A stretch of 64,000 bases of DNA from an uncultured Granulosicoccaceae bacterium (lineage in GTDB: Bacteria; Pseudomonadota; Gammaproteobacteria; Granulosicoccales; Granulosicoccaceae): positions 1-64,000 of the forward strand of contig CALHNS010000011.1 in NCBI GenBank assembly GCA_938035125.1, written 5' to 3'. The notes under the pieces were generated by a model. That model did not search any database. It saw only the letters and a list, made by a program, of their open reading frames with translations, and was not told where the DNA came from. Shown one piece after another: positions 40,265 to 42,718 of this stretch (position 1 is its first letter; each line of letters opens with the position of its first letter). Position numbers and translations under genes: made by a program.

Positions 40265-40420
40265 GATAGGTACTTCGGCTGATCGAGGCCTTTGATAAGG
40301 GCGTTATAGCTGCGTTTGTGAATGTATGCAACGCTTGTGTGAACTACAGTCGTTTGTGTGTCAGAGTATGCCGTTGACCCTTATACTTTTTGCTACTTAA
40401 ATGTTTTGAATGGTGACCTT

Positions 40421-41020
40421 ATGAGCCGTACTGTCAATTACTACCACTTTCTGATCTCACCTTATAGCTACCTCGGTATTAACGGGCTTAATGCCTTAGT
40501 ATCGAAACACAACCTAACGGTGAATTACTTGCCGATGTCTGTGATGGATGTGTTCGGGGAAACAGGCGGCGTGCCCCCTGCCAAGCGCCACCCTTCTCGT
40601 CAGCGTCAGCGCATGGATGAGTTAAAGCGTTGGTCTGAGCATTTAGGTTTGAAAATGAATTTAACCCCTAAGCACTTCCCAACCGATCAAACATTGGGAG
40701 CCCAGATGGTATTGGCCGCTGGTGGGGCAACAGGCAACCCCGATGCTGGCAAGTTAGTTAATGGCTTACTTACCGCGGTATGGGCAGAGGAAAAAGATGT
40801 TGCCGACGAAGCCACATTAATTGCCGTTGCAGACAGTGTTGGACTGCCAGGTTCCGAGCTGTTAGCGCAAGCCAAAGATGAGCAATGGGCCAAAGCCTAT
40901 GCCAAAACCACCGAAACGGCTATTGCTGCAGGTGTGTTTGGTTCACCAACGTATCAACTGGGTGATGAATTGTACTGGGGCCAGGATCGGCTCGAATTTT
41001 TAGATCGCGCGCTCAGCTAG
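40421..41020 (+). CDS. 2-hydroxychromene-2-carboxylate isomerase family (DsbA-like/GST-kappa) protein
   Basis: VNYYHFLISPYSYLG...VFGSPTYQLGDELYWGQDRLEFLDRAL. Confidence 0.88.
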   Translation: MSRTVNYYHFLISPYSYLGINGLNALVSKHNLTVNYLPMSVMDVFGETGGVPPAKRHPSRQRQRMDELKRWSEHLGLKMNLTPKHFPTDQTLGAQMVLAAGGATGNPDAGKLVNGLLTAVWAEEKDVADEATLIAVADSVGLPGSELLAQAKDEQWAKAYAKTTETAIAAGVFGSPTYQLGDELYWGQDRLEFLDRALS

Positions 41021-41068: not shown

Positions 41069-42718
41069 ATGGCTTATCGTTCTTTGGTTATAAAATTTCC
41101 AGCCATGTTACTTATGGTTGCAGGTTCTTTTAATTCGGCTGCTGCGTATGCCGATACCTGCGAACCCTATGACCCTACCGCTGAATACCAATTAGTATTC
41201 TCAGATGAATTCGATGGTGATGAGTTAGATCGCGTTCGTTGGAATACCGAGTTTCTATGGGGCCCAGGTGTCATTATCAATGGAGAAGATCAGTATTACG
41301 TGAACGCCGATCAATTCGGCTACAACCCCTTTGTGGTTAGCGATGGCATTTTATCCATCAAAGCCGATAAAGCACCCTTCGATCGAACGCGCCTGTATCT
41401 AACAAAATCTATTTATTCAGCCACTTCTGCTGAAGTTTTGTGGCGACAGCCAGAAGGCGCTGTTAGCTACGATGTAGTCAGAGACGGTGCTTTACTGGGC
41501 AGTGCGCAAGGCGGTGCATGGTTTGAACCTGAGTTACGTGACGGCATTGACTACGCCTACGAAATTACAGCTAGAGATGAAAACGGTAACGCGGTATCCA
41601 CCGAGCAAATAACGGTTAATACTTCTGAGCGTGATCGCTTTACACCGCGCACGGCATTTTCATTAGAACTGGATACAAGAGTTTATTCAGATACTTCTGG
41701 TGAAATTGTATGGCGACCACCTAATCGTGCTGCCTATTACATCGTTACTCACGACGGTGAGGCAGAGCGATTTAACGGTCGCACTTTTAGTAGTTTGTAT
41801 TTGGGTGATATACCAGCCAACACCGATCTAACCTATCAAGTGGCAGCTTACGACTTGTGCGATGAATTAATCATCGAAGACACCATCGTGTTAAATACAG
41901 CTGTTGGCCAATCAGTGAATGAAGTATCAGAACGCTTAGTCATCGCTGCCACCACCTATTCTGAATCTACCGTAGAAATCAGTTGGAATGCGGTTCAAGG
42001 TGCTAGCGCTTACACCTTATATGACAACGGTGAGCTTATTGATACGATTTCTGGGCGTTCGTTGTTCATTGATAACATGGTGCCAGGGATTGATAGAAGG
42101 TTTTTAGTAGTTGCCATAGACAATGATGGCGTTGAAGTTGATAGCACCTCGCGCACACTCAATACCGCTGATGCAAGTTTTGCATTAAATCGCCAGCCTT
42201 TCGTGTCTGGTGTACTCACCAGCTACGATTCGTTTCGTTTCAAATACGGCAAAGTGGAGATGCGAGCTAAAATGCCTGCGGGCAAAGGTTTATGGAGCGC
42301 GTTTTGGTTACTTAACGCTTATTACCATGATGCGGAACCTGAAGACCCTGAAATCGACATTATTGAGGCCATAGGTGATCGAACCACCACAGCAAATCAT
42401 GCCTATCACACACAAAATGATTCTGACGGTAACGGGGTAACCGATTCCATCATCAGTGATGAGTTCAGAGCCACCATTCCAGACTTCTCCGCCGATTTTC
42501 ATCGCTATTCAGTGGAATGGACACCCGAGTCCATCACCTATATGGTGGATGACCGAATCACCGGAGAGGTGCGCGGGGAGCGGGTTTCACAAGAACAGAT
42601 GTACATCATAATGAACTTAGCGGTGGGTGGGTTCTTCCCAGGTCCTGCGGATGAAACCACGCCTTTTCCGGCCTCTTTTGACATTGATTACGTTAGGGTT
42701 TTTCAAAAAAGGCGCTGA
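41069..42718 (+). CDS. Secreted GH16-family glycoside hydrolase (beta-glucanase type) with inserted FN3-like modules
   Basis: Signal peptide; YQLVFSDEFDGDELDRVRWNT; KYGKVEMRAKMPAGKGLWSAFWLL; catalytic EIDIIE (ExDxxE) near 42350-42367; YIIMNLAVGG. Confidence 0.87.
   Translation: MAYRSLVIKFPAMLLMVAGSFNSAAAYADTCEPYDPTAEYQLVFSDEFDGDELDRVRWNTEFLWGPGVIINGEDQYYVNADQFGYNPFVVSDGILSIKADKAPFDRTRLYLTKSIYSATSAEVLWRQPEGAVSYDVVRDGALLGSAQGGAWFEPELRDGIDYAYEITARDENGNAVSTEQITVNTSERDRFTPRTAFSLELDTRVYSDTSGEIVWRPPNRAAYYIVTHDGEAERFNGRTFSSLYLGDIPANTDLTYQVAAYDLCDELIIEDTIVLNTAVGQSVNEVSERLVIAATTYSESTVEISWNAVQGASAYTLYDNGELIDTISGRSLFIDNMVPGIDRRFLVVAIDNDGVEVDSTSRTLNTADASFALNRQPFVSGVLTSYDSFRFKYGKVEMRAKMPAGKGLWSAFWLLNAYYHDAEPEDPEIDIIEAIGDRTTTANHAYHTQNDSDGNGVTDSIISDEFRATIPDFSADFHRYSVEWTPESITYMVDDRITGEVRGERVSQEQMYIIMNLAVGGFFPGPADETTPFPASFDIDYVRVFQKRR

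Follow-up and report, generated by a model that had tools for sequence, protein, structure and literature searches.

The GH16 gene of the window (the whole stretch of 64,000 nucleotides analysed here, from an uncultured Granulosicoccaceae bacterium) raises the question of whether the catalytic domain of its product is interrupted by a nested block of other domains and, if so, what that block does. The original prediction, made from the letters alone, placed three FN3-like modules at residues 105-372, between beta-strands of a GH16 domain, and its description of the ORF, the boundaries and the modules was accurate. The features are listed in Table 1. No Rfam match was found near the GH16 gene. 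The genome contains 10 GH16 matches.

Table 1. Features of the GH16 gene, its product and the adjacent upstream gene, in positions of the window.
Feature	Residues	Positions	Strand	Basis
ORF of 549 aa, encoding the secreted GH16 glucanase and its FN3-like insert		41069..42718	+	sequence, Pfam, profile search
Predicted signal peptide, signal peptidase I type, cut AYA/DTC	1-28	41069..41152	+	read from sequence
Cys31, first conserved cysteine of the mature protein	31	41159..41161	+	ortholog comparison
GH16 N-terminal half	39-104	41183..41380	+	paralog profile (model 1-69, E=2.7e-18), alignment, AlphaFold model
Nested insert, in place of a loop of ~10 residues	105-372	41381..42184	+	profile, alignment, tree
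FN3-like module 1	105-188	41381..41632	+	hhalign, AlphaFold model, FN3 profile match
FN3-like module 2	196-281	41654..41911	+	hhalign, AlphaFold model, FN3 profile match
Cys264 in module 2 (FG loop), predicted to pair with Cys31 in a disulfide	264	41858..41860	+	flanking model strands 254-261 and 267-275; ortholog comparison
FN3-like module 3	287-370	41927..42178	+	hhalign, AlphaFold model, FN3 profile match
GH16 C-terminal half	373-548	42185..42712	+	PF00722 match, structure-sequence match, paralog profile
Catalytic motif EIDIIE, ExDxxE type	428-433	42350..42367	+	invariant in 19 orthologs
Conserved neighbouring gene upstream, separate from the enzyme; thioredoxin fold like that of DsbA, probably a 2-hydroxychromene-2-carboxylate isomerase		40358..41020	+	

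In Pfam, the GH16 family (PF00722) matched residues 359-541 only (E=8.5e-26; 90.9 bits against a cut-off of 22), and residues 1-104 alone matched no Pfam family. Because a match restricted in this way could by itself reflect a domain that begins only downstream of the insert, we built a GH16 profile from four uninterrupted paralogs of the same bacterial family and ran it against all fetched ORFs. Positions 1-69 of the profile matched residues 40-105 (E=2.7e-18) and positions 72-239 matched residues 371-547 (E=7e-60); the two blocks abut in the profile, yet they lie ~265 residues apart in the protein. All 19 orthologs were split into two blocks at the same point, and the 43 GH16 domains outside the ortholog clade aligned without such a gap. 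In the alignment, the stretch 'ITAIRTP-DYLRDSA-RQQNYLSG' of a paralog stood opposite 'IKADKAPFDR...SFALNRQPFVSG', with an insert of 268 residues replacing the short loop, and across the joint KAPFD...NRQPFVSG corresponded to TPxxLxxxANxQPYLSG of the paralogs. Further, an uninterrupted paralog aligned over its full length with residues 18-263 of the Thermotoga petrophila laminarinase 4dfs. Judged by homology and by the predicted structure, residues 39-104 and the C-terminal half are one GH16 jelly roll that includes the N-terminal strands. The nested insertion between beta-strands proposed in the original prediction was thus borne out by the two-block match; the first ~100 residues were homologous to GH16 N-terminal strands rather than lying outside the jelly roll, and a complete GH16 domain after residue 372 was seen in no ortholog.

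Structure prediction of the full protein, which had been suggested as a check, gave a confident model that supports the two halves as one catalytic domain. The final AlphaFold2 run used 62 aligned sequences, in which uninterrupted GH16 domains were added to the orthologs, and yielded a mean pLDDT of 87.1 and a pTM of 0.78; locally, the pLDDT was 92-96 in blocks covering residues 31-60 and 92-98 in most of the C-terminal core. It superseded a first run with the 19 orthologs only (pLDDT 77, residues 62-81 weak). The best Foldseek matches were laminarinases. In neither model did Foldseek align the N-terminal half past the insert, and its longer alignments had an rmsd near 11 A; since the Foldseek alignments failed to span the insert, they were not used as proof of the packing of the N-terminal half, which is predicted from homology and model confidence.

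We searched 48 Granulosicoccaceae genomes, which were all of the genomes of the order sampled, and a full-length copy was present in 19, including that of the window. The other 18 orthologs, the named ones among which are from Granulosicoccus and Granulosicoccaceae MAGs, were 55-78% identical to it, and the insert with all three modules was kept in every one of the 19; the search for homologues with the same insertion therefore returned a set that is entirely Granulosicoccaceae and entirely insert-bearing. Among 369 genomes sampled across the class, no match at E<=1e-40 was detected outside the same genus, and plasmids contained no full-length match. Because the layout recurred in 19 separate assemblies, one of them a single-contig genome, chance or misassembly as its source was excluded. 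In a tree of the GH16 columns, from which the insert columns were left out, the 19 orthologs formed one clade (support 100) among uninterrupted paralogs of the same family, and the simplest reading of this tree is a single derived insertion in a Granulosicoccaceae enzyme lineage. A block of three FN3 modules would then have entered the loop between the strands 'ILSIKA' and 'SGVLTS' of the jelly roll in the ancestor of the lineage.

The gene order glmS-EamA-MFS-HCCA isomerase-GH16 was largely conserved in most orthologs with enough flanking sequence. The DsbA-fold gene, which is the isomerase gene of Table 1, likewise preceded GH16 in most of these, and we assume no functional link. We looked for an intermediate form at the same locus in two genomes that retain the neighbouring genes (G043 and G045), and the GH16 gene was absent from the locus in both. 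No polysaccharide-utilisation locus is obvious around the gene. Elsewhere in the sample, three ORFs (G032:C179, G028:C87 and G002:C250) had two GH16 matches each and are probably tandem GH16 proteins.

The three modules of the insert are homologous to one another, with hhalign probabilities of 99.0-99.6%. In the AlphaFold model every module is a beta sandwich of seven strands, and each carries one conserved tryptophan at the usual FN3 core position (W125, W215 and W306, all invariant among the orthologs). The module profile matched FN3 domains of solved structures, among them those of chitinase A1 (E=1.2e-5) and of GH31. In contrast, the Pfam check on the insert fell short: the insert alone scored 16.0 bits against fn3, below the gathering score of 25, the best fn3 score in the whole protein (16.9 bits) came from a stretch outside the insert, and only 1 of 33 single modules tested matched fn3 at E<=0.01. 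Since the modules match solved FN3 structures but fall under the Pfam cut-off, 'FN3-like' is the right wording.

The nearest modules elsewhere in the same genome were in other secreted proteins, the CHRD protein L116 and the proteins L118 and L119, of which the last two contain single or double copies. The L116 product (L116:1-1986) has three CHRD domains followed by a C-terminal triplet of FN3-like modules similar to the inserted ones. In the module tree, the inserted modules fell together (support 99/98) with modules from two GH16 paralogs and from other secreted proteins, and they formed one clade of their own weakly (support 61/72, 81 columns). Several uninterrupted Granulosicoccaceae GH16 paralogs also carry FN3 modules, N-terminal to the unbroken GH16 domain, and most of these clustered apart from the inserted modules. 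Given this grouping, transfer of the inserted modules from the N-terminal FN3 modules of sister GH16 enzymes is not favoured.

The orthologs also share a cysteine pair, which is previously unreported and new in this analysis. The sequence 'ADTC' at the predicted signal-peptide cut was conserved in 19/19 orthologs, and the mature protein of each has exactly two cysteines, Cys31 near the mature N-terminus and Cys264 within the FG loop of module 2; the same pair was not found in the uninterrupted paralogs examined. As the protein is exported and the two cysteines are the only ones and are conserved, a disulfide is predicted between them, which probably ties module 2 to the mature N-terminus and would fix it there. 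FN3 modules have their two ends at opposite poles. Since both ends of the insert close on one loop, the three modules would have to bend back on themselves. As for the substrate-binding arm that the original prediction raised as a possibility, a straight arm of modules is incompatible with the fold as modelled and is unlikely, both because the two ends lie on one loop and because module 2 is probably held at the N-terminus by the cysteine pair.

The catalytic motif is intact, as read from the sequence: EIDIIE and His447 were invariant among the 19 orthologs. The position of His447 after the ExDxxE strand suggests that it is the conserved histidine described for GH16_3 (PMC6827312). The GH16_3 motif WPA...WXX...WPX, which is largely but not universally conserved (PMC6827312), was partly present: W409-S-A and W413-L-L were found, and no WPX preceded EIDIIE. 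The substrate may for this reason not be laminarin. The protein is most likely a secreted endo-glucanase acting on beta-1,3 or mixed beta-1,3/1,4 glucans such as laminarin, and its natural target is probably algal beta-glucan. In GH16 enzymes, the negative subsites lie sandwiched between fingers 1 and 3; finger 2, an optional and variable element, can lie over finger 1 (PMC7419316). From sequence order and strand alternation, the insertion loop is likely to be finger 2, so that the insert would take the place of the optional finger near the negative subsites. At the corresponding place, a further GH16 of the genome, L008, has a longer loop (residues ~449-467 of a 667-aa ORF) with a cysteine pair of its own, PPVCDEIDPTGLDRCEFVSG, which suggests that the loop is a hot spot.

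On balance, we consider it probable that the protein is an intact secreted GH16 endo-glucanase with one inserted FN3 triplet, in which the two halves continue to form a single catalytic domain and the triplet is fixed by the disulfide as a wall or platform near the cleft. The most likely role of such a rigid structure beside the cleft would be to position the enzyme on the polysaccharide or to limit which chains enter. A more specific version, put forward only tentatively, is that the disulfide-locked triplet acts as a lid or wall in place of finger 2 and gates the negative subsites, so that substrate choice in this lineage would depend on an added external scaffold and not on the residues of the cleft alone.

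An alternative that we regard as rather unlikely is that the insert is a carbohydrate-binding device, in which one or more of the FN3-like modules bind glucan directly and feed it to the cleft. This reading draws on two known systems. In a Maribacter GH16_3 laminarinase (AlphaFold entry A0A559NTH3), the catalytic domain is interrupted after beta-strand 5 (PMC11345257), apparently, on a rough count of residues, at the same loop, and the extra domain resembles a laminarin-binding surface protein, BfSGBP-B. That enzyme differs from ours in having no FN3 triplet and in being a Bacteroidota lipoprotein of ~700 aa with further N-terminal domains (PMC11345257). In MtGlu5, an accessory domain is likewise nested within a glycoside hydrolase catalytic domain, where the inserted CBM raises substrate affinity, but the host is a TIM-barrel GH5 and the insert is CBM29-like (PMC9063844). 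Against direct binding, the modules of our insert matched FN3 domains and no CBM family, their conserved tryptophans occupy the FN3 core position, and neither an obvious exposed aromatic platform nor an invariant exposed aromatic cluster stood out in the ortholog alignment.

These systems also bear on the claim that the architecture is unusual. Unusual it is, but the Maribacter enzyme is a precedent, and the nested FN3 triplet appears to be a new version of layouts already known from that enzyme and MtGlu5. A GH18 chitinase insertion domain is also reported to be nested in a glycoside hydrolase, of another fold and family (PMC2805709); the words 'insertion' and 'inserted' do not occur in the GH16 subfamily survey (PMC6827312). 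The closest solved structures by sequence, the laminarinases of T. petrophila and T. maritima (4dfs and 3azx), share with the Granulosicoccaceae protein the order of strands, the catalytic motif and the N-terminal strands, but have a short loop where the latter has its insert. The uninterrupted paralogs (L001, L003, L041, L043 and others) are up to 49% identical in the GH16 part and differ in lacking both the interruption and the cysteine pair.

A role of the insert as a spacer, or in adhesion to the cell surface or a partner protein, with no effect on catalysis and with an accidental position in the loop, is improbable. Similar modules do occur at the C-termini of other secreted proteins of the same genome (the CHRD protein and a spondin-like protein), and the insert changes in most pairs at roughly double the rate of the C-terminal catalytic half; however, the insert sits between core strands, its three modules were retained throughout the orthologs, and it is probably linked to the N-terminus through the cysteine pair. 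The faster evolution is as compatible with a scaffold as with a binding surface. The dN of the insert was 0.14-0.33 while dS was 1.7 or saturated, and a dN so far under dS indicates purifying selection on the insert. Finally, that the first ~100 residues are a domain of their own, with all of GH16 following residue 372, as the Pfam matches taken by themselves would allow, is extremely improbable, given that these residues match the N-terminal strands with which GH16 laminarinases start and adjoin the C-terminal half in the profile.

The reading that we prefer, a disulfide-fixed wall or platform inserted beside the cleft of an intact enzyme, offers a direct experimental handle in its predicted two-cysteine clamp. 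Nested domains are uncommon in glycoside hydrolases, and for GH16 we found one report, on a different domain and from another phylum. If both insertions are in the same optional-finger loop, as they appear to be, this loop would be a place where incoming domains are tolerated, which would be useful for understanding how algae-associated bacteria diversify their glucanases and for the design of chimeric enzymes.
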